NCBI RefSeq assembly: GCF_011059185.1
Contig: NZ_JAALFE010000021.1
Coordinates: 1 to 55,648, forward strand
DNA length: 55,648 nt
From: Paragemmobacter kunshanensis
Lineage (GTDB): Bacteria; Pseudomonadota; Alphaproteobacteria; Rhodobacterales; Rhodobacteraceae
Reading direction: 5' to 3'
Below are positions 17,058 through 51,212 of this stretch, in pieces (position 1 is the stretch's first letter; the number at the start of each line of letters is the position of its first letter). Under the pieces are notes generated by a model, which saw nothing but the letters and a program-made list of their open reading frames with translations, did not search any database and had not been told where the DNA came from. The position numbers and the translations under genes are program-made.

Positions 17058-17070
17058 AGACATATATCAT

Positions 17071-17088: not shown

Positions 17089-17142
17089 GTCCAGCTTGTC
17101 ACTTCAAGTTCGATACAGACTAGCACATCAAAATCAAAAATC

Positions 17143-17160: not shown

Positions 17161-17175
17161 GAACACTGTCCACGC

Positions 17176-32412: not shown

Positions 32413-33246
32413 ATGAGCTATGCACGCCCCCAGACCCTGACCGAAGCGATCCGCCTCCTCGCCGGATCGCAGATCAGGCTTCTGGCCGGCGGCACCGATC
32501 TCTATCCCGCCACCCAATCCGCCGCCCTGTCCGGCCCGATCCTCGATCTGGCCGATATCGCCGAACTGAACGGCATCACCCCATGGAATGGGGGCCTGCG
32601 CATCGGTGCCACTACATCATGGTCCACCATCGCCGAAGCACCCCTGCCGCCAGCCCTGCGCGCCCTGCAGCAGGCGGCGCTTCAGGTGGGCGGGCGGCAG
32701 ATCCAGAACGCCGGCACAATCGGCGGCAATCTCTGCAACGCCTCGCCCGCCGCCGATGGCGTGCCGCCGCTTCTGGTGCTGGATGCCCGGGTGGAACTGG
32801 CAGGCCCGCTAGGCCGCCGCGACCTGCCGCTTGCGGCCTTCCTCACCGGCCCGCGCCGGACGGCGCGCGCGCCCGATGAAATCGTGACCGCGATTTTCAT
32901 TCCGGAACAATCGCTTGCCGGTCACTCCTCGTTTCTGAAACTGGGCGCGCGGGCCTATCTGGTCATCTCCATCGCCATGGTCGCCGCCCGCCTGACCCTT
33001 GCCGCCGATGGCCGCATCGCCAGGGCCGCCCTCGCCGTGGGCGCCTGCGGCCCGGTCGCCACCCGCCTTGCGGCGCTCGAACCCGCGCTGACCGGCCTCA
33101 CCCCGGCGCAGGCCGCGCAAAGCATCACGCCCGAAACCCTCTCCCCCCCTCTCGCGCCCATCGACGACATCCGCGCCACCGCCGCCTATCGGCTTGAGTC
33201 TGCGGCAGAACTTCTGCGCCGCGCCCTGCTGGATTGTGCCCCATGA
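32413..33246 (+). CDS. Molybdenum hydroxylase FAD-binding subunit
   Basis: 277 residues, the CoxM/XDH-type medium subunit. FAD contacts: LLAGGTDLYPATQ near 25-37 and the TIGGNLCNASPAAD segment near 105; the C-terminal CO-dehydrogenase flavoprotein domain follows. It passes electrons from the Fe-S clusters of its partner to an acceptor. I chose the ATG giving MSYARPQTLTEAIRLL. Its stop overlaps the next start (ATGA). It is the first gene of the long overlapping operon. Confidence 0.92.
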   Translation: MSYARPQTLTEAIRLLAGSQIRLLAGGTDLYPATQSAALSGPILDLADIAELNGITPWNGGLRIGATTSWSTIAEAPLPPALRALQQAALQVGGRQIQNAGTIGGNLCNASPAADGVPPLLVLDARVELAGPLGRRDLPLAAFLTGPRRTARAPDEIVTAIFIPEQSLAGHSSFLKLGARAYLVISIAMVAARLTLAADGRIARAALAVGACGPVATRLAALEPALTGLTPAQAAQSITPETLSPPLAPIDDIRATAAYRLESAAELLRRALLDCAP

Positions 33247-35921
33247 CGCGCTTCATCCTGAACGGCACCCCCCGCCATTGCGACAGCCCCCCCACCCGCC
33301 GCCTGTCCGATGTCCTGCGCGAAGACCTCGGCCTGACCGGCACCAAGGTGGGCTGCGATGCCGGGGATTGCGGCGCCTGCACCGTGCTGATCGACGGCCG
33401 CGCCACCTGCGCCTGCCTCACCCCCGCCGCCCGGGCCGAGGGGCGGCATATCCAGACGGTCGAGGCCCAGACCCCCGAACTAACCCGCCTCCGCGCCGCC
33501 TTCCTGCGCCATGGGGCTGCGCAATGCGGCATCTGCACGCCCGGCATGCTGATGGCCGCCGCCGAACTTATCGCCCGCAATCCCGCCCCGACCGAGGCAG
33601 AGGCCGAAGCCGCCATCGGCGGCGTCCTCTGCCGTTGCACCGGCTATCGCAAGATCCTTGCCGCCATCTGCGACGCGACCGATGCCCCCGCGCCAAGCCT
33701 GCCCCAGGGCCGCGCTACCGGCCAGCCCATCCCCCGCCTTGACGGGGCGGAAAAGGTGGCCGGCGATCTCTTCGGGGCCGATGTCCTGCCGGAAAATGCC
33801 TGTGTTCTCAAGGCGATCCGCTCTCCCCATCCGCATGCGGCCTTTACCTTCGGCGATCTCGCCGCCTATGCCGCGCGGCCCGGGATCGCGGCCGTCTTCA
33901 CCGCCGCCGATATCCCCGGGCGCAATGCCTTTGGCGTCATCCCCCCCTTCGCCGATCAGCCCGCCCTTGCCGAAAGCCCCGCCCGCTTCCGGGGCGAGGC
34001 GGTCGCCCTCGTCGCCTTCGCGCCCGGCCATGATCCGGCGACCGATGATTTCCCGATCACATGGCAACCGCTTCCCGCGCTGACGGATCCCGATGCCGCG
34101 CTGCAGGCAGCCCACCCCCTGCATCCCGGTCGGCCCGACAACATTCTCGTCCAGGGCCTTGTCCGCAAAGGCGATTCCGCCACAGCCATGGACCGCGCCG
34201 CGCATGTCGTCTCGGCCGAGATCACCACCGCCTTCGTCGAACATGCCTATATCGAACCCGAGGCCGGCGCCGCCTGGCTTGAGGGCGAAACCCTCTGCAT
34301 CCGCGCCTGCACCCAGGCCCCCGTGATGGATCGCGACGAAACCGCCGCCATCCTTGCCCTGCCGCCCGACCGTATCCGCATCCTGCCCAGCGCCGTGGGC
34401 GGCGGCTTCGGCTCCAAGCTCGATCTCAGCCTGCAACCGCTGCTCGGCCTTGCCGCGCTGCGGCTGCGCCGCCCGGTGCGGATGGTCTACAGCCGCGCCG
34501 AAAGCATGGCCTCCACCACGAAACGCCACCCCGCGCGGATGCGTGGCCGCATCGGCTGCGACGCGCAAGGCATTGTCACGGCGCTGGAATTCGACGGAAC
34601 CTTCGATACCGGCGCCTATGCCAGCTGGGGGCCCACCGTCGCCAACCGCGTGCCGGTCCATGTGACCGGCCCCTATCACACCCCCCATGTCACGGCCATC
34701 GCCCGGGCCGTGCATACCCATAATCCCGTCTCGGGCGCCTTCCGCGGCTTTGGCGTGCCGCAGGCCGCCATCTGGCAGGAAACGGCCTATGACCGGCTCG
34801 CCGACAGGCTCGGCCTCGACCGGCTGGAATTCCGCCTGAGGAACGCCCTGCGCGATGGCCAGAGCAGCGCCACCGGCCAGGTCCTGCAGGCCACCGGCAT
34901 CGCCCCCTGCCTGACCGCGCTCCGCCCCCACTGGCGGCGCGCGCTGGCCGAGGCATCGGGCCAGCCCGGCCGTGGCGTGGGCCTTGCCTCCTGCTGGTAT
35001 GGCTGCGGCAACACCTCGCTTCCCAATCCCTCCACCATCCGCATCGGCATCACCGCGCGGGGGGAACTGGTCCTGCATCAGGGGGCCACCGATATCGGGC
35101 AGGGCTCCAACACCGTGATCGCCCAGATCGCCGCCGATGCGCTGGGGTTGCCCGTCGGGCAGATCCGCCTGATCGGCCCCGATACCGCCCTGACGCCGGA
35201 TGCGGGCAAGACCTCGGCCAGCCGCCAGACCTTTGTCACCGGCCGCGCGGCGCTGGCCGCCGGGGCCGAACTGCGCGCCGCCATCCTGCGCCGCGCCAAT
35301 GCCTCCGACGCGGCCCGCCTGTCGCTCGACGGCCCCCTCCTTGCCGTCACCGAAGGCGCCACCCGGCACGAGATCGCGCTTGCGGGCCTGCCCCCCGATG
35401 ACATGGGCTATGTGCTGATGGCCGAAGCAAGCTATGATCCCCCCACCGCGCCGCTGGATGAAAACGGTCAGGGTCGCCCCTACGCCCTTTACGGCTATGG
35501 CGCGCAAATGGTTGAACTTTCCGTCGATCCCGCGCTGGGAACGGTGCGCCTGCACCGCATCACCGCGGCGCATGACCTTGGCCTTGCGATCAACCCGCTG
35601 CTCGCCACCGGCCAGATCGAGGGCGGCATCGCCCAGGGCATCGGCCTTGCCCTGATGGAGGAATACCTCCCCGGCCGGACCGAGAACCTGCATGACTACC
35701 TCATTCCCACGGCGGGCGACGTGCCCCCGATCACCTCCCTCCTGATCGAGGTGCCCGATCCCGAAGGTCCCTTCGGGGCCAAGGGCCTTGGGGAACATGT
35801 GCTGATCCCCACGGCCCCGGCCATCCTGAACGCCATCCGCCATGCCACCGGGGCCGAGATCACGCAGCTTCCCGCCCTGCCGCACCGCATCCTTGCCGCG
35901 ATGAGGGCTGCCCGGCCATGA
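33243..35921 (+). CDS. Fused 2Fe-2S and molybdopterin subunit of a molybdenum hydroxylase
   Basis: 892 residues joining the small (residues 1-150) and large (155-892) subunits that are often separate. Two 2Fe-2S sites: C38, C43, C46 and C58 (plant-type), and C95, C98, C130, C132 (QCGICTPG and CRCTGY). Mo-cofactor motifs: VGGGFGSKLD, SGAFRGFGVPQ, GATDIGQGSN, and the catalytic Glu near residue 851 in FGAKGLGEHV. Enzymes of this layout hydroxylate N-heterocycles next to the ring nitrogen, for example nicotinate or purines. The reductase gene downstream suggests a pyridine or pyrimidine-like substrate. Confidence 0.93.
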   Translation: MTRFILNGTPRHCDSPPTRRLSDVLREDLGLTGTKVGCDAGDCGACTVLIDGRATCACLTPAARAEGRHIQTVEAQTPELTRLRAAFLRHGAAQCGICTPGMLMAAAELIARNPAPTEAEAEAAIGGVLCRCTGYRKILAAICDATDAPAPSLPQGRATGQPIPRLDGAEKVAGDLFGADVLPENACVLKAIRSPHPHAAFTFGDLAAYAARPGIAAVFTAADIPGRNAFGVIPPFADQPALAESPARFRGEAVALVAFAPGHDPATDDFPITWQPLPALTDPDAALQAAHPLHPGRPDNILVQGLVRKGDSATAMDRAAHVVSAEITTAFVEHAYIEPEAGAAWLEGETLCIRACTQAPVMDRDETAAILALPPDRIRILPSAVGGGFGSKLDLSLQPLLGLAALRLRRPVRMVYSRAESMASTTKRHPARMRGRIGCDAQGIVTALEFDGTFDTGAYASWGPTVANRVPVHVTGPYHTPHVTAIARAVHTHNPVSGAFRGFGVPQAAIWQETAYDRLADRLGLDRLEFRLRNALRDGQSSATGQVLQATGIAPCLTALRPHWRRALAEASGQPGRGVGLASCWYGCGNTSLPNPSTIRIGITARGELVLHQGATDIGQGSNTVIAQIAADALGLPVGQIRLIGPDTALTPDAGKTSASRQTFVTGRAALAAGAELRAAILRRANASDAARLSLDGPLLAVTEGATRHEIALAGLPPDDMGYVLMAEASYDPPTAPLDENGQGRPYALYGYGAQMVELSVDPALGTVRLHRITAAHDLGLAINPLLATGQIEGGIAQGIGLALMEEYLPGRTENLHDYLIPTAGDVPPITSLLIEVPDPEGPFGAKGLGEHVLIPTAPAILNAIRHATGAEITQLPALPHRILAAMRAARP

Positions 35922-37393
35922 CCCTGATCCCCGATCCCGCCGCACCCCCGGCAACCGGGGCCGCCCCCGAAAAGATCCGCTGCGATGCCTGCCCGGTCAT
36001 GTGCTACATCGCCCCCGGCCAGACCGGGGCCTGCGACCGCTATGCCAACGATGCGGGCCGCATCATCCGCACCGATCCCGTCACCCTGCTGACCAGGGCG
36101 CTTGACCATGGCGGCCGCATCATCCCCTTCGCCGCCGCCACCTGGACCGATGGCCTTGTCCCCGAGGATAGCACCGTCACCGGCATCGGCTCCGGCACCA
36201 CCTATCCGGACTACAAGCCCGCCCCCTTCATCGTCAGCCAGCAGATCGACGGGGCCGACATGGTCACCGTGGTGACAGAGGCGATCTTTTCCTATTGCGG
36301 CGTCAAGGTGAAGATCGACACCGACCGCCACCTTGGCCCCGAAGGCGCCACCGTCCGCCATCAGGGCGAACCCGTTGGCCATGTCACCACCGCCGAATAC
36401 GGCTCGCAGATGCTGTCGCTCGGCGGCGTCCATCACCTGACGGGCGGCAGCAAGGCCGAAGGCCGCCTCACCTGCGCCGCCCTCCTTGCGCTCTGCAATG
36501 GCGAGGCGGTGGATTTGACCATCGACGAAGGCTCCACCGTCACCGTGCAGGCAGGCAAGCCCCCCATCGTGGACGGCATCCCCGAACGGCGGATGCGCGT
36601 CGGCTGCGGTTCGGCCACCATCGGGATGTTCGCCAGCCAGTGGAAGGGTCTTGTCGACGAAGTCGTCGTCGTGGACGACCACATCACCGGCGTCGTGTCG
36701 GAACATCAGGCGGGCAAGGTGATCGGCTGGGAACCGACAGGCATCCGCATCAAGGGCCACCGCTCCACCCCCGGCCGCTATTTCCGCGTCTCCGAACCCG
36801 GCCTGGGCTGGGGCGGCACGCGGCTTTCTGATCCGCTGGAGATATTGGGCGACTGGAACCCCAAGAAAGGCGCGCGGCCCGGCCTGCGGCTGCTGATGGT
36901 CTCCACCACCGGCGAGCAATATGCCTATTACGAACTCGACGACGAATTGAACCCCCGGGCCATGCCCCTGCCCCCGGCGCTGCTGCCCACCGTCGCCCTG
37001 ATCGACGAGAATTGCGAACCCTCGCTCTGCACCGTCCTCTTCATGGGCGGTGCGGGCGGGTCGCTGCGGGCGGGCGTCACCCGCAACCCCGTAAGGCTGA
37101 CCCGCTCGGTCCAGTCGGGGGAAACCCGTCTCACTTCGGGCGGGGCCGAGTGCTTCATCTGGCCGGGCGGCGGGATCACCTTCATGGTCGATGTCACGCG
37201 CCTGCCGCAGGGCGCCTTCGGCCATGTCCCGACCCCGGCCCTTGTCGCGCCGCTGGAATTCACCCTGCCCCGCGACGCCTATCTGCGCCTCGGTGGCCAT
37301 GACGATGCGATCCGGTCGCTGCCCGACATCATCGAGACGGGCGGCGAATACCCCATCGCCGCGAAGCTCCACCCGAAAGGCGGCCCGGTATGA
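35918..37393 (+). CDS. 6-hydroxynicotinate-reductase-like Fe-S protein
   Basis: 491 residues, close to the length of the clostridial 6-hydroxynicotinate reductase, which reduces 6-hydroxynicotinate to 1,4,5,6-tetrahydro-6-oxonicotinate. The N-terminal cysteine cluster C22, C25, C29 and C39 (RCDACPVMCY ... GACDRY) can hold a 4Fe-4S centre. Several glycine-rich stretches follow (GIGSGTTYPDYKPAPF, RMRVGCGSATIGMFASQW). Both ends overlap neighbours by 4 bases. The family name rests on a small number of characterised members, so the true substrate may be another hydroxylated N-heterocycle. Confidence 0.82.
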   Translation: MTLIPDPAAPPATGAAPEKIRCDACPVMCYIAPGQTGACDRYANDAGRIIRTDPVTLLTRALDHGGRIIPFAAATWTDGLVPEDSTVTGIGSGTTYPDYKPAPFIVSQQIDGADMVTVVTEAIFSYCGVKVKIDTDRHLGPEGATVRHQGEPVGHVTTAEYGSQMLSLGGVHHLTGGSKAEGRLTCAALLALCNGEAVDLTIDEGSTVTVQAGKPPIVDGIPERRMRVGCGSATIGMFASQWKGLVDEVVVVDDHITGVVSEHQAGKVIGWEPTGIRIKGHRSTPGRYFRVSEPGLGWGGTRLSDPLEILGDWNPKKGARPGLRLLMVSTTGEQYAYYELDDELNPRAMPLPPALLPTVALIDENCEPSLCTVLFMGGAGGSLRAGVTRNPVRLTRSVQSGETRLTSGGAECFIWPGGGITFMVDVTRLPQGAFGHVPTPALVAPLEFTLPRDAYLRLGGHDDAIRSLPDIIETGGEYPIAAKLHPKGGPV

Positions 37394-38235
37394 CCGCCCA
37401 GATCGCATGGCTGCCCGGCAACCGCCTGCACCTGAACCACGGCCCCATCGACGTGATCCTGCAAGGCTGGGGCGATCCCCGCGCGCTGGCGCAGGGCTAC
37501 GCCGCCGTGGCGGATCGCTTTCCCGCGATCCTGCCCGAACTCTGCGCCGAACTTCCGGCGCTGCGCGCGCCCGATGCCGCCCTTCACGGCCCCGTCGCCC
37601 GCCGCATGGCCGCCGCCGCCGCCCCCTTCCGCCCCGCCTTCATCACCCCCATGGCCGCCGTCGCCGGTGCCGTGGCCGAAGAGATCCTGCGCGCCTTCCT
37701 CCGCCCCGGCATCACCCGCGCCTATGCCAATAACGGCGGCGACATCGCGCTGCATCTCGACCCCGGCGAAAGCCTGACCTGCGCCATCGCAGCCCGCCCC
37801 GGCATGACCGACCGGCTCACGATCCGCCACGCGGATCCCGTCCGCGGCATCGCCACCTCCGGCTGGCGCGGCCGCTCGCATTCGCTAGGCATCGCCGATG
37901 CCGTCACGGTCCTTGCCGCCACCGCCCCCATGGCCGATGCCGCCGCCACCATGATCGCCAATGCCGTCGATCTACCGGGCCATCCCGCCATCACCCGCCG
38001 CCCCGCCCGCGACCTTGCCCCCGACAGCGACCTTGGCCCGCGCCGCGTCACCACCGCAGTCGCGCCGCTTGACCCCACCGAGATCGCCGCCGCCCTTACT
38101 GCCGGCGAGGCCGCCGCGCGCGCCTTCCGCCAACAAGGACTGGTTGAGGCCGCCGCCCTTTTCCTGCACCCTGAATTGCGCATCCTCGGTCCCTTCGCGC
38201 TGACCGCCCAATCACCGGAGCCCGCCCTTGCCTGA
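37390..38235 (+). CDS. UPF0280 family protein (ApbE-like fold)
   Basis: 281 residues. ANNGGDIALHL near 115 and GIATSGWRGRSHSLGIADAV near 157 match UPF0280, relatives of ApbE, the enzyme that attaches FMN to proteins. Its constant company with 6-hydroxynicotinate-reductase-like genes suggests it matures or modifies that enzyme; this is inference. Overlaps the reductase by 4 bases and the next gene by 8. Confidence 0.82.
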   Translation: MTAQIAWLPGNRLHLNHGPIDVILQGWGDPRALAQGYAAVADRFPAILPELCAELPALRAPDAALHGPVARRMAAAAAPFRPAFITPMAAVAGAVAEEILRAFLRPGITRAYANNGGDIALHLDPGESLTCAIAARPGMTDRLTIRHADPVRGIATSGWRGRSHSLGIADAVTVLAATAPMADAAATMIANAVDLPGHPAITRRPARDLAPDSDLGPRRVTTAVAPLDPTEIAAALTAGEAAARAFRQQGLVEAAALFLHPELRILGPFALTAQSPEPALA

Positions 38236-38812
38236 CGCCTTCCCCCTTCGCCGCATCACCCTCCAGATCGAAGAGGTCCATCACGAAGGCGGCCCGCCGG
38301 CCGCGACCCCGCATCTGAAGGGCGCGATCATGGCCGTCTGCGCCAATCCCTTTGCCGGCCGCTATGTCGAGGATCTGCAACCCGCGATGGAAACGCTCAA
38401 GCCCCTGGCGCTGATGCTGACCGACCGCCTCGTCGCGGCGCTTGGCGGGCGCGAGGGGATAGATGCCTATGGCAAGGGCGCGATGGTGGGCGAGAATGGC
38501 GAGGCCGAACACGGCGCGATCTGGCATGTCTCGGGCGGTTACGGGATGCGTGAACGCCTTGGCGAATGCCGGGCCATCGTGCCCTCGGCAATGAAGGTGG
38601 CGGGCGTGGGCGGGATGCTGGACATCCCGCTTGGCCATCTGAACGCGGCCTATGTCCGCTCGCGCTTTGACAGCATCAACATCCGCATCGACGATGCCCC
38701 CCGCGCCAATGAGGTGGTCTTTGCCCTCGCCATGGCCAAGGGCGGGCGCATCCACAGCCGGATGGGCGGGCTGGAGATCTGGCAGGTCAAGGGCGAGGAC
38801 GGGCTGAGATGA
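38228..38812 (+). CDS. DUF1185 ('amino acid synthesis') family protein
   Basis: 194 residues. Recognised by IEEVHHEGG, CANPFAGRYVEDLQPAM, GKGAMVGENGEAEHGAIWH and AKGGRIHSRMGGLEIWQV. As I recall, crystal structures of members show a chorismate-mutase-like trimeric fold related in outline to cyclic-amide hydrolases such as cyanuric acid hydrolase. Its family title is a guess from early annotation. In this operon a ring-opening, isomerising or lyase step is possible. Overlaps on both sides support co-translation. Confidence 0.85.
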   Translation: MPDAFPLRRITLQIEEVHHEGGPPAATPHLKGAIMAVCANPFAGRYVEDLQPAMETLKPLALMLTDRLVAALGGREGIDAYGKGAMVGENGEAEHGAIWHVSGGYGMRERLGECRAIVPSAMKVAGVGGMLDIPLGHLNAAYVRSRFDSINIRIDDAPRANEVVFALAMAKGGRIHSRMGGLEIWQVKGEDGLR

Positions 38813-40221
38813 CGGAACGGCGGCAGCCATGCGGCCCTGACGGCCCGCGTCCCGGCCTTTCCGGGATGCTGGGTCGGTCAGCGCTGCCCGCTGCCGCCCT
38901 GCTGCTGCCCACGGCCGCCTTTGCCTGCGCCCTGCCGCCCTCGGTCATCCTGACGCTGCCGACCGGCTGGTATATCACCGGGGCGGCCATCACCGTGGCC
39001 CTGACGGCCCTTCTGGGTGGCATGGCCCGCACCCTGCCCGATCCGCAACCCCGCCTGATCCTTGAACGCCCGGTGCTGCTGCCGGTCACCCTGACCTCCT
39101 ACCTGTCCTGCCTTGCCTTCCTGGGCCTTGTCTTCGTCGGCTGGTATGGCTCGCGCGATCCGATGCACAACCTGATGACGCTGGTCTTCTGGACGGGCAT
39201 CTGGATTGCCCTGCCGCTCGGCTCGCTGCTCTTCGGTCATCTCTGGCGCCCCATCAACCCCTGGACCGGCCCGGTCCGCATCGCGCGCCTGCTCCTGGGC
39301 CGTCAGGGCGGCATCGGCCTGTCGCGCCTTGGCCATCTGCCCGCCCTTGCAGGCTATGGCGGCTTTGTCTGGTTCCAGATCGTCTCGATGTCGCCCGATG
39401 ATCCGGCGGTCCTCGCCACGGTCGCGCTTGCCTATTGGGCGGTGATCCTGGCCCTCGCCATCCTCGAAGGCGAAGACTGGCTGGAGCAGGGCGAATTCCT
39501 GACCGTCCTCATGGGCTATCTCGCGCGCATCGCGCCGCTCTGGCTGGAATTGCGGGGAACACGCGCCCGCCTCATGCTGGGCTGGCCCGGGGCACAGGTC
39601 CTGCGCATGGCCCCGCTCGGCCCCAGCGCCATCGCCTTCGTCACCATGGCGCTGGCCGCGCTGACCTTCGACGGGTTGGCCGAAACCTTCTGGTGGCTGG
39701 GCCTGATCGGGGAAAACCCGCTGGAACCAACCGGGCGATCCGCCGTCATGGGGGTGAACACGCTGGGCCTGCTGGCCGTCTGGGCGCTGACGGCGGGCAC
39801 GATCCTGGGCGCGATCCGGCTGGGTCAGCGGCTGGGCGGCGGCTTTGCCACGGGGCCCGTGATGCTCTCTTTCCTGGCCATCGCCGCGGGCTATCACGCC
39901 GCGCATTACTTCGTGACGCTGCTCACTGCCGGGCAATACACCCTAGCCGCGCTGAACGATCCGCTCTTTCGCGGCGACAGCTACCTCGGCCTGTCGGAAT
40001 TCTTCGTCTCCTTCGGCTTCCTCACCGATCCCACCCTCATGCCCGCCATCTATGGCACCCAGTTCGCCGCCATCCTGCTGGCCCATCTCCTTGCCGTCTT
40101 CCTGACGCTGAAACTGGCAGGCCCCGTCACGCGCGCGCTTTCGCATCTGCCGATGACGGCGCTGATGGTGGGCTATACCAGCCTCGGCCTCTGGCTCCTG
40201 TCCACGGCCCGCAGCCTATGA
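38809..40221 (+). CDS. Multipass membrane protein of unknown role
   Basis: 470 residues, about 12 hydrophobic segments, and an N-terminal signal-like stretch (PAAALLLPTAAFACALPPS). I recognise no transporter motif. Related proteins are sometimes labelled fenitrothion hydrolase in databases, on thin grounds. Conserved-looking features are HLWRPINPWTGP near 145 and GYHAAHYFVTLLTAGQYTL near 365, with His and Tyr in membrane context. It is co-translated with DUF1185 and followed by the ABC importer, so a role in uptake or electron transfer from the molybdenum enzyme is possible. Confidence 0.7.
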   Translation: MTERRQPCGPDGPRPGLSGMLGRSALPAAALLLPTAAFACALPPSVILTLPTGWYITGAAITVALTALLGGMARTLPDPQPRLILERPVLLPVTLTSYLSCLAFLGLVFVGWYGSRDPMHNLMTLVFWTGIWIALPLGSLLFGHLWRPINPWTGPVRIARLLLGRQGGIGLSRLGHLPALAGYGGFVWFQIVSMSPDDPAVLATVALAYWAVILALAILEGEDWLEQGEFLTVLMGYLARIAPLWLELRGTRARLMLGWPGAQVLRMAPLGPSAIAFVTMALAALTFDGLAETFWWLGLIGENPLEPTGRSAVMGVNTLGLLAVWALTAGTILGAIRLGQRLGGGFATGPVMLSFLAIAAGYHAAHYFVTLLTAGQYTLAALNDPLFRGDSYLGLSEFFVSFGFLTDPTLMPAIYGTQFAAILLAHLLAVFLTLKLAGPVTRALSHLPMTALMVGYTSLGLWLLSTARSL

Positions 40222-40285
40222 CGCCCCCTTTCACCACCCCGAGACGCGCAACAGACGCGCCCGGCCAACAGCGGAGAGAACGACC

Positions 40286-41572
40286 ATGACGAAACACCTG
40301 ATCGGACACGCGCCGAGCCGTCGCTCGGTCCTCAAGGGGATGGGGGCGGGCCTTGTCGCCGCCTCGGCCTTCCCCGGCTATACCTGGGCGCAATCCTCGG
40401 CCCCCATCAAGCTGGGCTTCCAGTTGCACCGCACCGGCATCGGCGCGGCCTATGGGCGCTGGTACGAACGCACCGCGCAGGCCGCGCTCAAGGTGCTGAA
40501 CGATGGCGGCGGCATCAATGGCCGCCCGGTCGAGATCGTCTTCGAGGATGACGCCACCGATCCCAAGCGCGGCGCGGAAGTGGTGGAAAAGCTGGCCTCG
40601 CAGGCCGGTTGCGACGCGATCTTCGGGCCGCTCTTTTCCCATGTCGTCATCGGCTCCGCCCCCCGGGCGGGCGAATTGAAGATCCCCTATCTGGTCTGTT
40701 CCGAAGGCTATCACGTGGCCTCGGGCATGCTGAACCGCTGGACGCTGCAGCCCGGCATCACCGATGTCCGCGCGCAGGTGTCGTCCATGGCGCCCTGGGT
40801 GATGCAGAACCTCGGCAAGAAGGTGACGATGGTCTATCCCGACTACGCCTTCGGCTATGACCACCGCGATTTCTTTACCGAAGCCGTCAAGGCCCAGGGC
40901 GGCGAGGTGATCGCCCAGATCGCCATCCCGCCGACCGAGACCAGCTTCACCCGCTATCTGCCGCAGATCCCGGCCGAGACGGAGGTTCTCTATCACGTCA
41001 TGGTCGGCCCCGCCGTGCTGACCTTCGTCAAGGAACTGGGCGATTTCTACGGATCGGGCGCGCGGCCGCAGATCTTCGGCTTCATCGACAGCCTGGAGGC
41101 CGTCGACACCGCCACGCCCGGCCTTGAATTCCTCGAAGGCACGCATTTCTGGGAAGGCCACAACCGCGTGAAACAGGCCGATGCGTCCGAGGCGGAAACC
41201 TTCTACCGCGCCGCGGTGGGGGTGGATGACAACGGCGCCTCGGTCAGCGATGCCAAGGATGTCTCCACCTATGCCCATATGTTCAGCTGCTGGGAGACGC
41301 TTTTCATCATCAAGCAGGGGATGGAGGCGGCAGGCTATCAGGGCCCGGCAGACCGCCAGAAATTCGTCGAGGCGATCGAGGCGATGACCGCCTTCGAGGC
41401 CGGCAACGACCATCCGCAGGGGGCAAAGATGTTCAACGGCAAGACCCATCAGGTCTTTGGCCATCAGTTCATCTCAAAGGTGGAAGGCGGCAAGCTGATC
41501 CGCGTGCATCAGACCGCGATCGAGGACGGCATGTATCCCGACGCGGTGGATTACACGACCCAATCCTTCTGA
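40286..41572 (+). CDS. ABC importer substrate-binding protein (Liv/urea type)
   Basis: 428 residues. The N-terminus has a twin-arginine signal (SRRSVLKGMGAGLVAASAF, cut near TWAQSS), so it is exported folded by Tat. The mature part is a type I periplasmic binding fold (PIKLGFQLHRTGIGAAYGRW, INGRPVEIVFEDDATDPKRG, VSTYAHMFSCWETLF). Its place ahead of four Liv-type genes makes it their binding protein. The substrate is presumably the heterocycle degraded by the operon. GGAGAG lies 9 bases ahead of the ATG. Confidence 0.9.
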   Translation: MTKHLIGHAPSRRSVLKGMGAGLVAASAFPGYTWAQSSAPIKLGFQLHRTGIGAAYGRWYERTAQAALKVLNDGGGINGRPVEIVFEDDATDPKRGAEVVEKLASQAGCDAIFGPLFSHVVIGSAPRAGELKIPYLVCSEGYHVASGMLNRWTLQPGITDVRAQVSSMAPWVMQNLGKKVTMVYPDYAFGYDHRDFFTEAVKAQGGEVIAQIAIPPTETSFTRYLPQIPAETEVLYHVMVGPAVLTFVKELGDFYGSGARPQIFGFIDSLEAVDTATPGLEFLEGTHFWEGHNRVKQADASEAETFYRAAVGVDDNGASVSDAKDVSTYAHMFSCWETLFIIKQGMEAAGYQGPADRQKFVEAIEAMTAFEAGNDHPQGAKMFNGKTHQVFGHQFISKVEGGKLIRVHQTAIEDGMYPDAVDYTTQSF

Positions 41573-41592
41573 TCCGCGGTCGATCCTGCCCA

Positions 41593-41619
41593 TCGGGGGG
41601 GCGCCCCGCGCCCCCCCGA
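41593..41619 (+). promoter_or_regulatory. GC-rich hairpin between binding-protein and permease genes
   Basis: TCGGGGGGGCG (41593-41603) and CGCCCCCCCGA (41609-41619) are perfect complements around a 5-base loop, with no T-run. Such hairpins after binding-protein genes protect the upstream mRNA or attenuate read-through, keeping the binding protein in excess over the membrane parts. Confidence 0.8.
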
Positions 41620-41645
41620 GCCCCCCCTTGCGCGGAGTGCGATCC

Positions 41646-42527
41646 TTGGGTTTCGGTCCCTTCCTGTTGCTGGCGCTGATGGAAAGCGCCGTCACCGCGG
41701 CGACACTGGCGCTGACGGCGGTCGGCCTGTCGCTGGTCTTTGGCGTGATGCGCGTCGTGAACGTGGCGCATGGCGAATTCTTCATGCTGGGCGCGGTCGC
41801 GGCCTGGTTCATCACGAATTTCATCGGCGGCCCGCCCTGGTTCGCCTTCCTCATGGCGCTTGCCCTGGCGCCGCTGGCCGTTGCGGCCATCGCGGCCCTT
41901 GCCGACCGGCTGATCCTGAAGCGGCTGGATTACGAACCCGAAGCCACCATCGTGGCCACCATCGGCCTGCTCTACATCTTCCAGCAGGCGGCGCTCTCCT
42001 TCTACGGCCCGCAGGCCATGCCGGTGGAGCCGCCCTTCAACTTCCGCATCCAGCTGCCCTGGTTCGGCTATTCGGCCTACAAGCTTTCGGTGATCCTTCT
42101 GGCCGCACTGGTGCTGATCGGCGTCTGGCTGTTCCTGACCCGCAGCAAGGCGGGCCTCGTGATGCGGGCAACCCAGGTGGATCGCGAAACCGCCCAGGCC
42201 TTCGGCATCGACACCGACCGCGTCTATGCCGCCGTCTTCGCCCTTGGCGCGGGCCTGGCGGCCATCGCCGCCGTGCTGATCGTGCCGATTGCCCAGGCGC
42301 ATTACCTGATGGGCCATGATCCCCTGCTGCTGGCCTTCATCACCGTCATCGTGGGTGGCCTCGGCTCGCTGCGCGGCACGGTGATCGCGGCCATCCTGAT
42401 CGGGCTGTCGGACGGGCTGATCGCCTTCTTCTGGTCGCCCACCCTGGCCAAGATCCTGGCCACCCTGCTGGTCGCCATGGTGCTGGTCTTCCGCCCGCAG
42501 GGCCTGTTCGGGGCCAGGACGACATGA
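41646..42527 (+). CDS. ABC importer permease (LivH type)
   Basis: 293 residues from a TTG start that I prefer because GGAG lies 8 bases ahead; other starts a few codons up- or downstream are possible. Family signs: LTAVGLSLVFGVMRVVNVAHGEF, MRATQVDRETAQAFGIDTDRV (EAA-like loop), TVIVGGLGSLRGTVIAAILIG. Eight or so membrane helices. Its stop overlaps livM by 4 bases. Confidence 0.88.
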   Translation: MGFGPFLLLALMESAVTAATLALTAVGLSLVFGVMRVVNVAHGEFFMLGAVAAWFITNFIGGPPWFAFLMALALAPLAVAAIAALADRLILKRLDYEPEATIVATIGLLYIFQQAALSFYGPQAMPVEPPFNFRIQLPWFGYSAYKLSVILLAALVLIGVWLFLTRSKAGLVMRATQVDRETAQAFGIDTDRVYAAVFALGAGLAAIAAVLIVPIAQAHYLMGHDPLLLAFITVIVGGLGSLRGTVIAAILIGLSDGLIAFFWSPTLAKILATLLVAMVLVFRPQGLFGARTT

Positions 42528-43450
42528 AGGTCTGGATCCTGCATGTCGCGGTGCTGCTGGCGCTTCTGGTGCTGCTGCTGGTCCTGCCCGCCTATCACGC
42601 CACCAATCTGGCGCGGATCATGGTGCTGGCGGTCTTTGCCATCGGCTACAACCTTGCCTTCGGCTATACGGGCCTGCTGTCGCTGGGACATGCGCTGTTC
42701 TTCGCGGCCGGGGTCTATGGCGCGGCGCTGCCGGTCACCTATCTGGGCTTTGCGCAACTGCCTGCGCTGATCGCGGGGCTTGTCGCCGGGGCCGTCATGG
42801 CCGGGCTGACCGGCCTTCTGGCCCTGCGCACGGCGGGCGTCAGCTTCATGATCGTCACCCTGATGTTCGCGCAGGCCGGCTATCTGTCGCTTCTTTACTT
42901 CGGCGAGGTGACGGGCGGCGACGAAGGCCTCGTCCTGCCCGGTGCCGCGGGCCTGATCCCCGGGCTTTCCGCCGATGCCGCCCGCACCACCATAGCCTAT
43001 GGCCTCTTTGCCCTTGCCCTGATCGCCTCGCTCCTTCTGGTGCGGGGCCGCTTCGGGCGGACCATGGTCGCCATGCGCGAGAATGAGGAACGCTCGCGCA
43101 TGCTGGGCTACAACCCCTTTGCCGTGAAACTGGCCGCGCTGGTGCTGTCGGGCCTTTTCGCCGGGGCCTCCGGCGCGGCCTATGCGCTGCTTTTCGGCTA
43201 TGCCGGGGCCAGCTTCGCCACCATCCAGTATTCCATCCTGCCCATGCTCTGGGTGCTGATGGGCGGGGCAGGCACCGTGCTGGGGCCGCTGATCGGCACG
43301 GCGGCGATGTTCTACCTTGTCGACATCGCGGGCAGCTATACCACGGCCACGCTTCTCTTTGTCGGGGTGGCGCTGGTGCTGCTGATCCTCTTCGCGCCCA
43401 GGGGCATCCTCGGCACGATCCGCGAAAGGTGGCTGCCATGGCTGCCGTGA
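42524..43450 (+). CDS. ABC importer permease (LivM type)
   Basis: 308 residues, second membrane subunit. Family signs: YNLAFGYTGLLSLGHALFF near 44, MRENEERSRMLGYNPFAVKL near 183, PMLWVLMGGAGTVLGPLIG near 240. Ends 13 bases inside the next gene. Confidence 0.92.
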   Translation: MKVWILHVAVLLALLVLLLVLPAYHATNLARIMVLAVFAIGYNLAFGYTGLLSLGHALFFAAGVYGAALPVTYLGFAQLPALIAGLVAGAVMAGLTGLLALRTAGVSFMIVTLMFAQAGYLSLLYFGEVTGGDEGLVLPGAAGLIPGLSADAARTTIAYGLFALALIASLLLVRGRFGRTMVAMRENEERSRMLGYNPFAVKLAALVLSGLFAGASGAAYALLFGYAGASFATIQYSILPMLWVLMGGAGTVLGPLIGTAAMFYLVDIAGSYTTATLLFVGVALVLLILFAPRGILGTIRERWLPWLP

Positions 43451-44160
43451 TCCTTTCCGCCCGCGCGCTCACGCGGCATTTCGGGGGCCTGCGTGCCGTG
43501 GACGGGGTAGATTTCGACCTGCATCAGGGCGATATCCACGCCCTGATCGGCCCAAATGGCGCGGGAAAGACCACCTTCGTGGGCCTGCTGTCGGGCCGCA
43601 TCCCCGCCCAATCCGGCACCATCACCCTGGCGGGCGAGGATATCACCAGGCTCCCCGCCCATGCCCGCGTCCGGAAGGGCATCGCCTATACCTTCCAGAT
43701 CACCTCGGTCTATCCGCGCCTGTCGGTCTTCGACAATGTCGCCCTCGCCGTGCAACAGGGGACAGACCGCGACCTCGGCCCCGCCGTGATGGCGGCGCTT
43801 TCCCGCGTCAACCTTGCCGACCGCGCCGAGCAGACCGCAGGCACCCTGTCCTATGGCCACCAGCGCCTGCTGGAAATGGGCATGGGCCTTGCCCTGCGCC
43901 CGCGCATCCTGATCCTGGACGAGCCGACACAGGGCCTTGCCAGCGGCGAGATCGCCAATTTCAAGGCCCTGATCCGCAGCCTCGTTCCCGAAACCACCGT
44001 GCTGCTGATCGAACACAACATGGACGTGGTCATGGACCTTGCCACCCGCATCACCGTCCTGAACCTGGGCCAGCACCTCGCCACCGGCACCGCGGCCGAG
44101 ATCCGCGCCAATCCGGCCGTGCAGGATGCCTATCTGGGGGGCCATCATGCTGCGGATTGA
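43438..44160 (+). CDS. ABC importer ATPase (LivG type)
   Basis: 240 residues. Walker A GPNGAGKTT near 37, signature LSYGHQRLLEMG near 138, Walker B ILILDEPTQGLA, H-loop LLIEHNMDVVMD. The signature reads SYGHQ rather than SGGQQ, which is common in LivG proteins. Start at the ATG with AAAGG 8 bases upstream; it overlaps livM by 13 bases and livF by 14. Confidence 0.92.
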   Translation: MAAVILSARALTRHFGGLRAVDGVDFDLHQGDIHALIGPNGAGKTTFVGLLSGRIPAQSGTITLAGEDITRLPAHARVRKGIAYTFQITSVYPRLSVFDNVALAVQQGTDRDLGPAVMAALSRVNLADRAEQTAGTLSYGHQRLLEMGMGLALRPRILILDEPTQGLASGEIANFKALIRSLVPETTVLLIEHNMDVVMDLATRITVLNLGQHLATGTAAEIRANPAVQDAYLGGHHAAD

Positions 44161-44842
44161 CGGCCTCTCGGCAGGCTATGGCCCCGTCGGCGTCCTGCAT
44201 GACCTGACGCTGGAGGCGCGGGCGGCGCAGATCACCTGCATCATGGGACGCAATGGCGCGGGCAAGTCCACGCTGATGAAATGCATCATGGGCCTTGTTC
44301 CGGCCTCGCGCGGGTCGATCACGCTGGACGGCGTCGCCCTGCACAGCCTGCCCGCCCATCGCGTGCCGGGCCATGGCGTGGCCTATGTCCCGCAGGGGCG
44401 CAGGCTCTTTGGCCCGCTGACCGTGGCCGAGAACCTGCAGATCGGCCTGATGACCCGCAACATGGGCGACGAGACGCGCGACCGCGTCCTCGACCTCTTC
44501 CCCCGCCTGCGCGAAAGGCTCGATCAGGTGGCGGCCACGCTTTCGGGGGGCGAGCAGCAGATGCTGGCCATCGGGCGCGCGCTCTGCCTTGAACCCAAGG
44601 TGCTGCTCCTCGACGAACCGACCGAGGGGCTGCAACCCTCGATGATCGCGCTGATCCGCGATGTCGTGCTGCGGCTGAAGGAGACGGGCGTGGCCACCAT
44701 CCTTGTGGAACAGCGCCCCGATGCGGTGCTGCAACTGGCCGATCGTGTGGTCTTCATGGCGAACGGAACCGTGGCCGATTGCAGCGAAAGGGCCGATCTG
44801 TCGCCCGACGCACCGCAATTCATGGCCTATGTGGGGGTTTGA
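44147..44842 (+). CDS. ABC importer ATPase (LivF type)
   Basis: 231 residues. Walker A GRNGAGKST near 36, AYVPQGRRLFGPLTV, signature LSGGEQQMLAIGRAL near 130, Walker B VLLLDEPTEGLQPSM. LivF-specific PQGR is present. Overlaps livG by 14 bases; its TGA abuts the hyuA ATG directly. Confidence 0.93.
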   Translation: MLRIDGLSAGYGPVGVLHDLTLEARAAQITCIMGRNGAGKSTLMKCIMGLVPASRGSITLDGVALHSLPAHRVPGHGVAYVPQGRRLFGPLTVAENLQIGLMTRNMGDETRDRVLDLFPRLRERLDQVAATLSGGEQQMLAIGRALCLEPKVLLLDEPTEGLQPSMIALIRDVVLRLKETGVATILVEQRPDAVLQLADRVVFMANGTVADCSERADLSPDAPQFMAYVGV

Positions 44843-46861
44843 ATGGGCAATCTCGTCGCCGGGGTCGATGTCGGCGGAACCTTCACCGATCTCGTGATCC
44901 TGAACCCCGATACAGGCGCGGTCCGGCTTGCCAAGGTGCCGACCAGCCTGCCCAATCAGGCGCCCGGCGTGCTGAACGCCTTCGATACCGCTGGCGCAGA
45001 CCTGGCCGATCTTGCCCTGATCGTTCACGGCACCACCACCACGACCAATGCGGTGCTGGAACGCGCGCTCTGCAAGACGGGGCTGATCACCACGCTCGGC
45101 TTCCGCGACGTGCTGGAACTGGGCCGCCGCACCCGGCCCCATCCCTATGGCATGACCGGCACCTTCACCCCCGTCATCCCGCGCGACCTGCGCCTTGAAA
45201 TCCCCGAACGGATGGATGCACAGGGCCGCGTCCTGACACCGCTCGACGAAACCGCGCTGCGCGCCGCCATCGCCAGCCTGCTCGACAAGGGCTGCGAAAG
45301 CCTCTGCATCCATTTCCTGCACGCCTATGCCAATCCGGCCCACGAAATCCGCGCCGCCGAAATCGCGCGCGAGCTCTGGCCCAACCCCTACATCACCTGC
45401 GGCCATCACCTTCTGTCGGAAAGCCGCGAATTCGAACGCGGCGTCACCGCCGCCGTCAACGCCGCCGTGCAACCCCTGCTGGAGCGCTATGTCTCGCGCC
45501 TTGCCGGCGAACTTCGCAGGCGCGGCTATCCCCGCGACCTTCTGGTGATGAACGGCAATGGCGGAATGGTCGAAGCCTCGAAGGTCAGCCGCGAGGCGGT
45601 GAAAACCGTCATGTCCGGCCCCGCCTCCGGCGTCATGGCCGCCCTTGCCACAGGCCGCCGCGCCGGTTTCCCCAACCTTCTGACCTATGACATGGGCGGC
45701 ACCTCCACCGATGTCGCCATGATCCGCAATGGTCGCGCCCCCGTCTCGAACGAAATCGAGGTGGAATATGCCATGCCTATCCATGTCCCCATGGTCGATG
45801 TCCGCACCGTGGGCGCGGGCGGCGGGTCCATCGCGCGGGTGGATGCGGGCGGCATGCTGCGCGTCGGCCCCGAAAGCGCAGGCTCCACCCCCGGCCCCAT
45901 CTGCTATGGCCGGGGCGGCACGCGCGTCACCATCTCGGATGCCAACCTGATCCTTGGCCGCCTGCCGCCCGACCGTTTCGGCCAGGCGGCCGAAGATGCC
46001 CGCCGCGCCCTGCAGGACCAGATCGCTGCCCCCCTTGGCCTGTCCGTCGAAGCCGCCGCCGAAGCCGTCATCCGCATCGCCAACACCCATATGGCGGGCG
46101 CGATCCGCATGGTCTCCATCTCGCTCGGGGCCGACCCGCGCGACTTTGCCCTCTTCGCCTTCGGCGGCGCGGGGCCCCTCCATGCCACCGCCCTTGCCCG
46201 CGAACTCGCCATCCCCCGCGTGCTGATCCCCGCCCGCCCCGGCATCACCAATGCGCTGGGCTGCGTCGTGGCCGACCTGCGCCACGATTTCGTGCGCACG
46301 ATCAACCGCCCGCTCGACAGCGCCGACATGGACGCCGTCCACGCCATCCTTGCCGCGCAGGAACAGGAAGGCCGCCGCCTGATCGCGGCCGAACGCATCG
46401 CGCTGACGGGCGTCACCGCCGAATTCTCGGCCGACATGCAGTTCGTGGGGCAGACCCACCTCCTGCGCATCCCCCTCCCCTCGGCCACCCCCACACGGGC
46501 AGAGTTGCAGGAGCGTTTCGAAGCCGCCTATCACGCCCGCTTCCGCGTCAGCCTCCCCTCGATCCGCGCGAACCTCGTGAACCTGAACTGCTCCGTCATC
46601 GGCCACCGCCCGGAAACCGATCTTTCCCGCCTGATCGACCCCGCCCACCGCCGCGCCATTGCGGAACCGACAGGCCACCGCACCGTCTGGTTCGGCACAC
46701 CCCACGAAACCCCCGTCTACTGGCGCGACCACCTGCCGCTTTCCGCCACGATCCACGGCCCCGCCATCATCGAACAGATGGACACCACCACCCTCATCGA
46801 CCCCGGCTGCACCGTCACGCTGGATGCCGAGGCCAACCTCATCGTCAGCGTGCCGCAATGA
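44843..46861 (+). CDS. hyuA: Hydantoinase/oxoprolinase subunit A (ATP-dependent)
   Basis: 672 residues. ASKHA ATPase signs: VDVGGTFTDLVIL near 8-20 and YDMGGTSTDVAMI near 280; also HGTTTTTNAVLER and FAFGGAGPLHATALA. With HyuB it opens cyclic amides (hydantoins, 5-oxoproline, N-methylhydantoin) at the cost of ATP. Here it would hydrolyse the lactam left after ring hydroxylation and reduction. Start directly after the livF stop; stop overlaps hyuB (ATGA). Confidence 0.92.
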   Translation: MGNLVAGVDVGGTFTDLVILNPDTGAVRLAKVPTSLPNQAPGVLNAFDTAGADLADLALIVHGTTTTTNAVLERALCKTGLITTLGFRDVLELGRRTRPHPYGMTGTFTPVIPRDLRLEIPERMDAQGRVLTPLDETALRAAIASLLDKGCESLCIHFLHAYANPAHEIRAAEIARELWPNPYITCGHHLLSESREFERGVTAAVNAAVQPLLERYVSRLAGELRRRGYPRDLLVMNGNGGMVEASKVSREAVKTVMSGPASGVMAALATGRRAGFPNLLTYDMGGTSTDVAMIRNGRAPVSNEIEVEYAMPIHVPMVDVRTVGAGGGSIARVDAGGMLRVGPESAGSTPGPICYGRGGTRVTISDANLILGRLPPDRFGQAAEDARRALQDQIAAPLGLSVEAAAEAVIRIANTHMAGAIRMVSISLGADPRDFALFAFGGAGPLHATALARELAIPRVLIPARPGITNALGCVVADLRHDFVRTINRPLDSADMDAVHAILAAQEQEGRRLIAAERIALTGVTAEFSADMQFVGQTHLLRIPLPSATPTRAELQERFEAAYHARFRVSLPSIRANLVNLNCSVIGHRPETDLSRLIDPAHRRAIAEPTGHRTVWFGTPHETPVYWRDHLPLSATIHGPAIIEQMDTTTLIDPGCTVTLDAEANLIVSVPQ

Positions 46862-48540
46862 TCGACCCCGTCACCCTCGCCGTCATTCAAGCGGGCCTGC
46901 AACAGGTCTGCGACGAGATGGACCTGACCTTCTCGCGCGCCGCCTTCTCGCCCGTGATCGCCGAGGCCGATGACCGCTCCGATGGCATCTATTCCGCCAC
47001 CGACGGATCGCTGATCGCCCAAGGGTCGCGCGGCCTGCCGGTTTTCGTCGGCACCATGCAATTCTCCACCCGCCATCTGGTGGAACGGATCGCCAGCGGC
47101 GAAACCCTGCCGCCAGAGCCGGGCGACATCTACATCGTGAACGACCCCTATCTTGGCGGCACCCACCTGATGGATGTCCGCTTTGCCATGCCCTTCTGGC
47201 GGAATGGCGAAATCTTCTGCTGGCTGTCGAATACCGGCCACTGGCCCGATACCGGCGGCGCGGTTCCCGGCGGATTCTCTGCCTCCGCCATCAGCGCCGA
47301 ACAGGAAGGGCTGCGCCTGCCGCCCGTGAAACTGTTCAAGCGCGGCCAGATGGATGCCGAAATCTACCAGATCATCTGCTCCAACATCCGCGTGTCCGAA
47401 CAGCGGATCGGCGATGTGCAGGCGCAGGCCTCGGCCCTGCTGGTGGGTGCTGACCGCCTGACCCAACTCCTCGACCGCTACGGCGACGCCACGGTGTCAG
47501 AGGCCATCGCCCATATGCGCGCCCTTGCCGCCCGCCAGATGCGGGCCAACCTCGCCCTCATCCCCGAAGGCCGCTACCACGCCACGGCCACCGTGGATTC
47601 CGACGGCGTCATCAACGAACCCCTCACCATCGCCCTTTCCGTCACCCGCGCAGCCGAGAGCCTGACCTTCGACTTCGCCGGATCATCGCCCCCCTGCATG
47701 GGGCCGATGAACTCTGTCCGCGCCACCACGCTCTCCTCCGTCTACCTCGCCATGCGCCACATCTTCCCCGATGTGCCCATCAGCGCGGGCGCCTTCGAAC
47801 CCCTCGTCATCACCGGCATCGAAGGCACCTTCCTCGATGCCCATTACCCCCGCCCCGTCTCGGGCTGCGCGGCCGAAGTGTCCCAGCGCATCGCCGAAGC
47901 CGTCTTCGCCGCGCTGGTGCAGGCCCTCCCCGACCGCGTCACCGCCGCCCCTGCCGGAACCTCGGGCAATTTCGGCCTCGGCGGGCATGATCCCGAAAAG
48001 GGCCGCGACTATGTGATGTATCAGATCTCGGGCGGCGGCTATGGCGGCAATCTCCATCACGACGGCCTGTCCAACGGCTGCTCCACCATCGGCATCTCCA
48101 AGGCCCCCCCGGTCGAGATCATGGAACAGTCCTTCCCCGTCCTCTACCGCCGCTACGCATTGCATGAGGGGTCGGGCGGCGCGGGCCAGCATCGCGGCGG
48201 CTTCGGCCTCGACTACGAAATCGAACTCCTGCGCGGCAGCGCCCGCGCCTCCTTCGTCATGGATCACGGCCGCACCGGCCCGCAGGGCGCGCAGGGCGGG
48301 CAGGATGGCGCGGTCAACCGGGTAGAGGTGATCCGCAACGGCGAAACCCTCATCCCCGAACACCTGTCCAAGGCGCAGGACATCCCCCTGTCGCCCGGCG
48401 ACCGCGTCCGCGTCCGCACCCCCGGCGGGGGCGGCTACGGCAACCCCGCCGACCGCGACCCCGCGCTGGTGGCCGAAGACATCCGCCTTGGCCGCTACGA
48501 TCCTGCCACCGCACGGCGGCTCTGGCCCGGAAAGGCCTAG
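46858..48540 (+). CDS. hyuB: Hydantoinase/oxoprolinase subunit B
   Basis: 560 residues, full family length. Visible: TFSRAAFSPVIAEADDRSDG, DIYIVNDPYLGGTHLMDV near 82-100, the GGFSASAISAEQEGLRLPPV segment, and the Gly-rich end VRVRTPGGGGYGNP. Partner of HyuA in ATP-dependent cyclic amide hydrolysis. It is the last gene of the tightly overlapping run; 117 bases separate it from the sulfatase gene. Confidence 0.93.
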   Translation: MIDPVTLAVIQAGLQQVCDEMDLTFSRAAFSPVIAEADDRSDGIYSATDGSLIAQGSRGLPVFVGTMQFSTRHLVERIASGETLPPEPGDIYIVNDPYLGGTHLMDVRFAMPFWRNGEIFCWLSNTGHWPDTGGAVPGGFSASAISAEQEGLRLPPVKLFKRGQMDAEIYQIICSNIRVSEQRIGDVQAQASALLVGADRLTQLLDRYGDATVSEAIAHMRALAARQMRANLALIPEGRYHATATVDSDGVINEPLTIALSVTRAAESLTFDFAGSSPPCMGPMNSVRATTLSSVYLAMRHIFPDVPISAGAFEPLVITGIEGTFLDAHYPRPVSGCAAEVSQRIAEAVFAALVQALPDRVTAAPAGTSGNFGLGGHDPEKGRDYVMYQISGGGYGGNLHHDGLSNGCSTIGISKAPPVEIMEQSFPVLYRRYALHEGSGGAGQHRGGFGLDYEIELLRGSARASFVMDHGRTGPQGAQGGQDGAVNRVEVIRNGETLIPEHLSKAQDIPLSPGDRVRVRTPGGGGYGNPADRDPALVAEDIRLGRYDPATARRLWPGKA

Positions 48541-50969: not shown

Positions 50970-50993
50970 CCCGGCTTTCCAGATTTGGGATGA

Positions 50994-51038
50994 TGGTGCC
51001 CCCAGAGGGGCTCGAACCCCCGACCCCCTGATTACAAA
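50994..51038 (-). tRNA. 3'-terminal fragment of tRNA-Thr(UGU), attachment-site remnant
   Basis: Read on the minus strand, 45 bases give anticodon loop TTTGTAA (anticodon TGT), the 3' anticodon arm, variable loop, T-arm with TTCGAGC loop, acceptor strand TGGGGGC, discriminator A and encoded CCA. The matching 5' half is absent: the bases before the loop do not pair with TCAGG and there is no GCCCCCA acceptor strand. This is the duplicated 3' end an integrase leaves at one junction; the intact gene should be at the far end of the element, outside the window. Confidence 0.85.
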
Positions 51039-51212
51039 ACACAATCTGGCCGTTGTCCTAGGTGATGCGGAAAAGTCCAACAAAGGCCACGGAGGTTTTC
51101 ATCTACCAATAAAAACAAGGGCGTGAGTGCTTTCTCGCACGCACGGCACGTCCCGGGTCGTCCATTGCCGTCCACCAAGAGCCACCCGTCCCGTGCAAGA
51201 TTTCTGCAAGAG

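Follow-up and report, generated by a model that had tools for sequence, protein, structure and literature searches.

The window, by which we mean the whole analysed stretch of 55,648 nucleotides from Paragemmobacter kunshanensis (contig NZ_JAALFE010000021.1), carries at positions 32413-48540 an operon of 13 genes, all on the + strand. They encode a two-gene molybdenum (Mo) hydroxylase, a 6-hydroxynicotinate-reductase-like Fe-S protein (Hnr), a UPF0280 protein, a DUF1185 protein, a membrane protein, a complete Liv-type ATP-binding cassette (ABC) importer and the pair HyuA/HyuB. With a probability of about 80% we read it as a self-contained operon for nicotinate catabolism by the reductive (6-hydroxynicotinate) route, with HyuAB in the place of enamidase; judged from sequence, the reduced ring appears to be opened by an ATP-driven enzyme pair instead of by enamidase. 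In the nicotinate fermentation of Eubacterium barkeri, hydroxylation and reduction to 1,4,5,6-tetrahydro-6-oxonicotinate (THON) are followed by enamidase opening to 2-formylglutarate, from which 2-hydroxymethylglutarate is formed. The operon would share hydroxylation, reduction and ring opening with that route, but the enamidase used there has no match at E <= 1e-60 in the window genome, where the best 4 of 14 first-look candidates were scored. A preliminary description of this DNA, made from its sequence alone, had proposed that the substrate is taken up, hydroxylated adjacent to the ring nitrogen, reduced and then opened at the expense of ATP, with HyuAB replacing an enamidase that was nowhere in sight. 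The absence also holds genome-wide within the search just given, and the scheme gains support from the near-exclusive replacement of one enzyme by the other across genomes and from a very near relative in which the swap has occurred naturally.

To describe this replacement, the samples have to be defined. A protein search with Hnr in one genome collection gave at least 588 relatives, the best 80 of which are the named loci below. In whole-genome searches Hnr was matched in 71 of 385 Alphaproteobacteria (the class sample), 14 of 41 near relatives and 32 of 398 genomes from the phylum; these three sets overlap, and certain species are present in both the named and the other genome sets. Three of the 71 genomes (G182, G288 and G365) were dropped for weak Hnr matches with E above 1e-4, leaving 68 Hnr genomes, among them one with Hnr in two pieces (G028) and one with a piece of Hnr ending at a contig end (G231). 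The amidohydrolase found beside some relatives' loci scored 375.9 bits against PDB 2vun, which we take to be the enamidase from E. barkeri, in a match spanning almost the whole length. Scored on the best four enamidase and best three HyuB candidates per genome, 29 of the 68 Hnr genomes possess a close enamidase (at least 70% identity to the query), and a close HyuB is found in 39 (at least 64% identity to the window HyuB), while none has both and none has neither; among the candidates listed for the 29 enamidase genomes no HyuB exceeds 45%. In the 317 other genomes of the class sample, the same limits gave enamidase in one (G082) and HyuB in none. In a second set of 38 further Hnr genomes, which played no part in setting the limits, every candidate was scored; 21 of them had HyuB at 71-93% and the remaining 17 had enamidase at 67-74%. 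Of 160 fetched Hnr loci, 74 show HyuA and/or HyuB within the fetched stretch and 22 show enamidase; no locus shows both and 64 show neither, a class that vanishes in whole-genome searches. Across the Hnr genomes HyuAB thus replaces enamidase near one-for-one.

The two enzymes have apparently been exchanged repeatedly. A quick Hnr tree was made from the proteins of 91 of the 106 Hnr genomes (the others were not fetched or not full length), with 42 enamidase-type and 49 HyuAB-type loci. The two labels are interleaved on it and change at least 8 times, 6 of these changes being forced by well-supported branches, and in 6 of 6 independent pairs the two enzymes are exchanged in opposite directions (sign test p = 0.03). 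The closest case is the window's nearest relative, taken as Rhodobacter amnigenus, whose Hnr is 92%, binding protein 91% and UPF0280 protein 85% identical to those of the window. Its operon is without HyuAB and DUF1185, the best HyuB of the genome is only 28% identical, and enamidase lies with two DUF1185 genes on another contig. The group enamidase-DUF1185-DUF1185 away from Hnr is a recurring one (L191:9408-11918, also L195 and L197). An enamidase-type plasmid of Sulfitobacter pontiacus carries enamidase (82% to a query), two DUF1185 genes, a Rieske gene and an importer. The single enamidase genome of the class sample outside the Hnr set, G082 (L194), has DUF1185 as well as a close enamidase and is without an Hnr match and without UPF0280.

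The genes of the operon, with the starts of the first two read from the sequence (ATG 32413 and ATG 33243, with a 4-bp ATGA overlap), are:

32413..33246, +, Mo hydroxylase FAD subunit (xanthine-dehydrogenase family, subunit M); PF00941 E=8e-43, PF03450
33243..35921, +, Mo hydroxylase, 2Fe-2S domains fused to Mo-cofactor domains; PF00111, PF01799, PF01315, PF02738, PF20256
35918..37393, +, Hnr, 6-hydroxynicotinate-reductase-like Fe-S protein; plasmid-record annotation, six invariant Cys
37390..38235, +, UPF0280 / COG2122 protein, ApbE-related; NF003322 370.6 bits, PDB 2o34 E=3.4e-6
38228..38812, +, DUF1185 / AA_synth protein; PF06684 E=2.5e-65
38809..40221, +, polytopic membrane protein, no family match; AlphaFold2 model with many helices
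40286..41572, +, Liv-type ABC importer, substrate-binding protein; PF13458 E=8e-52
41628..42527, +, Liv-type permease 1; PF02653
42524..43450, +, Liv-type permease 2; PF02653
43429..44160, +, Liv-type ATPase 1; PF00005, PF12399
44126..44842, +, Liv-type ATPase 2; PF00005
44843..46861, +, HyuA, ATP-binding subunit, oxoprolinase/caprolactamase-type ATP-dependent lactamase (predicted); PF05378, PF01968, PF19278
46858..48540, +, HyuB, metal-site subunit, partner of HyuA (predicted); PF02538 E=6e-155, CapB 6yra_B E=4e-74

Pfam and NCBIfam scans together with the reading frames agree with the preliminary description in families, order, strand and coordinates, and correct its gene count from 12 to 13. 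The tight packing it noted also stands, since 10 of the 12 junctions overlap or abut, but its figure of 11 of 12 genes becomes 12 of 13 touching a neighbour, because gaps flank the binding-protein gene only (64 bp ahead, 55 bp behind). The annotation of a Fuscovulum ytuae plasmid has the same gene order, HyuA and/or HyuB are in view of Hnr in 49 of the 80 named relatives, and in 167 of 171 loci UPF0280 is the next gene 3' of Hnr, in the same orientation, with contig ends cutting off the remaining 4; the arrangement is therefore far beyond chance. The preliminary description had suggested looking for co-occurrence of these families across genomes; UPF0280 stays with Hnr in the loci that extend far enough, and each Hnr genome of the class sample and of the second set has HyuB or enamidase at the identities given above.

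Hnr is called 6-hydroxynicotinate reductase in the public annotation of 17 of 26 matching plasmid records (58-80% identity), and its Cys 22, 25, 29, 39, 230 and 366 are invariant in 172 of 172 aligned rows. It reached no Pfam or NCBIfam model at the model's cut-off, and its AlphaFold2 model (predicted local distance difference test, pLDDT, 73.5) gave no PDB match at E<=0.001 in Foldseek. The adjacent UPF0280 protein passed the curated model NF003322 (PRK04334.1-2) with 370.6 bits against a cut-off of 290, and this model found nothing in 80 Hnr-negative genomes, which were chosen non-randomly and mostly have some HyuB match. Its adjacency to Hnr in 167 of 171 loci suggests UPF0280 as an Hnr maturation factor, and it is plausible that it matures Hnr. 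It resembles the ApbE flavin transferases and COG2122 in two motifs that we take to be those of ApbE: GGD and the four fixed residues of ADxxAT (A, D, A, T) are retained in 165-167 of 167 rows. The covalently bound flavin that E. barkeri Hnr reportedly carries would fit such a role. Unlike the known targets, Hnr is without the canonical ApbE target motif, D-x-x-[S/T]-G-A-[S/T] (PMC12052999), as [ST]GA[TS] occurs in 5 of 172 rows. UPF0280 acting as a plain ApbE on the known motif is therefore not supported, and if it flavinylates Hnr it would not do so in the standard way. The same lack of a target motif favors another explanation, namely that UPF0280 is a catalytic or electron-delivery partner of Hnr and not a maturation factor; to this can be added that COG2122 of Desulfovibrio is needed for homocysteine formation and that its homology is said not to reach the flavin-binding region of ApbE (PMC5764234). 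Set against the retained GGD and ADxxAT residues and the presumed flavin of E. barkeri Hnr, we put this partner role at a little under even odds, a question separate from that of the ring opener.

The proposed ring opener has Hydantoinase_A and Hydantoinase_B domains (Pfam models passed by HyuA and HyuB). The pair is like CapAB and OplAB, two-subunit ATP-dependent lactam hydrolases (PMC8453981, PMC11033972), and differs from them in lying within a pyridine route and in falling below the curated caprolactamase models, with 490.4 bits (HyuA, NF050156) and 302.7 bits against cut-offs of 1000, so it is not caprolactamase itself. In HyuB D39, D42, H103, D106 and H128 are conserved at 97% or more (42 rows); H103, D106 and H128 correspond, by motif and spacing and not by structure, to the CapB metal ligands H99, D102 and H124 (PMC8453981). 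A pair of the HyuAB family opens delta-valerolactam with ATP (PMC11033972), and THON is, like delta-valerolactam, a six-membered lactam. ATP-driven hydrolysis of THON to 2-(aminomethylene)glutarate and then 2-formylglutarate is, by this analogy, the natural reading, and HyuAB most likely opens THON.

In the proposed pathway the Liv-type importer would bring in nicotinate or a compound that closely precedes it; the Mo hydroxylase would convert nicotinate to 6-hydroxynicotinate, which Hnr, with UPF0280 as maturation factor or helper, would reduce to THON. HyuA would then spend ATP on activating the ring lactam of THON and HyuB would hydrolyse the activated lactam to 2-(aminomethylene)glutarate, which would give 2-formylglutarate and ammonia, and DUF1185 probably works on the ring-opened product en route to glutarate. 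The DUF1185 protein passed PF06684 with 219.7 bits (cut-off 27) and has solved relatives in 3byq and 2qtp. The preliminary description had considered it as a substitute for enamidase together with HyuAB; this is ruled out, as all 29 enamidase-type genomes carry DUF1185, and of the 39 HyuAB-type genomes 30 carry it and 9 do not. These counts, and its absence together with HyuAB from the R. amnigenus operon, place its probable action at ring opening or later. The DUF1185 proteins TgnF and HcdD are likewise found in other catabolic clusters, whose substrates differ, and for HcdD an effect could not be shown (PMC7913881). Taken jointly, a HyuAB "THONase" repeatedly exchanged with enamidase, a UPF0280 protein installing the covalent flavin of Hnr without the ApbE motif and a DUF1185 protein acting on a ring-opened formyl acid form a tentative proposal, which in its complete form we consider rather doubtful.

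The most likely substrate of the operon is nicotinate, probably often supplied as nicotinamide. The N-heterocycle route of the preliminary description is supported, and it can be narrowed to nicotinate because nicotinamidase genes and, once, a nicotinate phosphoribosyltransferase gene adjoin HyuAB-type clusters. An isochorismatase-family gene is within the fetched stretch of 21 of the 80 named loci, and in all 27 loci of both sets that have it, it lies 1.6-7.7 kb from Hnr. A nicotinamidase-like gene was recognized by similarity at 12 loci with HyuAB in view, two of which are the same contig (L180, L074), and all 7 proteins scanned from HyuAB-type neighbourhoods scored above the curated threshold of NF008623, the nicotinamidase model. 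Nicotinate phosphoribosyltransferase is present at one HyuAB-type locus (L052) and one enamidase-type locus (L172). Nicotinate and 6-hydroxynicotinate are both degraded by SG-6C, a strain with a published Hnr cluster (PMC3511419). A Rieske oxygenase of the VanA_C type was seen in 13 Hnr loci (including L188:12921-13991), 11 of them enamidase-type; it is possibly an N-demethylase for trigonelline or another N-methyl pyridine.

HyuAB-type clusters could instead act on another pyridine or lactam (a substituted nicotinate, 2-pyridone or picolinate), the ring opener having changed together with the substrate. The Mo hydroxylase and importer do also vary, the window-type Mo enzyme being present in 28 of 42 enamidase-type against 40 of 49 HyuAB-type tree loci, and HyuB at 61-63% occurs in four Hnr-negative genomes, near another Mo enzyme in one (L210) of the two fetched. 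Nevertheless, the window and R. amnigenus have different ring openers with binding proteins 91% and Hnr 92% identical, enamidase-type and HyuAB-type loci are mixed in the Hnr phylogeny and nicotinamidase is found at HyuAB-type loci, so we consider a change of substrate improbable. That HyuAB hydrolyses another lactam or a by-product, with THON opened by an unrecognised amidohydrolase or DUF1185, would agree with the HyuAB, or HyuB alone, kept away from Hnr in some HyuAB-type genomes and with DUF1185 within the operon, but it is very improbable since it leaves the division of the 68 genomes into 29 and 39 without overlap unexplained and runs against the DUF1185 counts given above.

Some observations weigh against a nicotinate operon with HyuAB in enamidase's place. 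Two of the 38 genomes of the second set (G513, G578) hold HyuAB together with a diverged enamidase (61-63%) on another contig, so the two enzymes do not strictly exclude each other. The identity limits were picked after the class sample was seen, the tallies for that sample rest on the best three HyuB and four enamidase candidates per genome, and at a strict 70% enamidase cut-off G405 (69%) and G715 (67%) count as neither type. The four Hnr-negative genomes with HyuB at 61-63% belong to one family, and near relatives of HyuAB therefore work outside the pathway. Beside the operon in the window there is no nicotinamidase or phosphoribosyltransferase, and the word enamidase is not used in PMC3511419. 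Finally, a few genomes have hyuA beside Hnr and hyuB elsewhere. In G066 and G028 (L141 and L145, with L227 and L198) hyuA is in the Hnr cluster and hyuB at a separate site; at L141 and L145 there is room after hyuA but no hyuB match there, and L112 and L126 resemble them but end too soon to tell. The genes of HyuA and HyuB thus need not adjoin. In the 20 HyuAB-type genomes where hyuB is away from Hnr or out of view, its recurrent neighbours are the importer, DUF1185/UPF0280, HyuA and weak Mo-enzyme matches, with no further neighbour recurring in more than 3. At L216, L222 and L227 hyuB adjoins such a weak Mo-enzyme match. In two genomes without Hnr, G307 and G217 (L209, L210), HyuAB is found at 57-62%, at L210 near another Mo enzyme, which may mark a related pathway acting on another heterocycle.

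For the first step, a putative hydroxylation of nicotinate, MoCoBD, 2Fe-2S and FAD domains were found by Pfam, and the best NCBIfam model of the fused subunit, TIGR03311, scored 552.6 bits, below its cut-off of 830. The first-step Mo enzyme is also exchanged among relatives: a cytochrome-c-linked form, presumably NicAB-like, occurs at L172, L173, six further enamidase-type loci and one HyuAB-type locus. Unlike the window enzyme, the Mo enzymes of L159, L172, L173 and L175 group with the cytochrome-c-linked one. The membrane protein (38809-40221), whose part in the pathway is presumed, had no Pfam or NCBIfam match, and its AlphaFold2 model (pLDDT 84.6, many helices) found no PDB match at E<=0.001 in Foldseek. 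It is present in 42 of the 80 named loci, typically ahead of the Liv-type binding protein.

The reductive nicotinate route and an Hnr cluster in Azorhizobium and Bradyrhizobiaceae are already known or predicted. The cluster described for Azorhizobium, Bradyrhizobiaceae and SG-6C has an Hnr homologue, a putative ABC transporter, genes of the first three steps and two conserved unknown proteins, its genes having been assigned by BLAST from the E. barkeri cluster, and nicotinate breakdown in A. caulinodans goes via glutarate (PMC3511419). UPF0280 and DUF1185 would fit the two unknown proteins, which are not named in the excerpts of that paper. Large genomes of one family (f171, possibly Bradyrhizobium) that resemble this published type have enamidase and no close HyuB. 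The operon had been called uncharacterised, which does not fully hold, since a nicotinate cluster with Hnr is published and Hnr is annotated in the plasmid records above. Among the matches listed from the open-licence PMC literature, no paper was found that links 6-hydroxynicotinate or THON to HyuAB or that mentions UPF0280, and neither the enamidase/HyuAB exchange, nor its near-exclusivity over 106 Hnr genomes, nor the strict Hnr-UPF0280 pairing was found in print there. A paper on a fungal nicotine transcriptome (PMC6346535) contains both "6-hydroxynicotin-" and "oxoprolinase".

With Hnr in 68 of 385 sampled Alphaproteobacteria, this degradation route for vitamin B3 would be widespread, and 39 of the 68 Hnr genomes are without a close match to the textbook ring-opening enzyme. 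A HyuAB subfamily so far named only "hydantoinase/oxoprolinase" obtains a defined candidate substrate, which raises the question of why ATP is spent where a plain hydrolase suffices, and UPF0280 and DUF1185 gain concrete partners and testable roles.

Upstream of the operon lie a divergent YbaK-like gene, then an M24 peptidase gene (+) and LysR and AraC regulators (-); a - strand frame at the M24 peptidase gene had no family match. A promoter and terminator scan gave no promoter-like sites and 2 terminator-like ones (1 per strand), both counts below the shuffle means. Directly downstream, at 48658-52496, a sulfatase, a formylglycine-generating enzyme (maturase) and a phage-type integrase are encoded. 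Farther away in the window, 6908-20475 contains an IS21-type transposase, IstB, Fic, McrBC, HipA and a ResIII helicase; this stretch, with a GC content of 57-63% against 65-70% in the operon, is a mobile or defence region.

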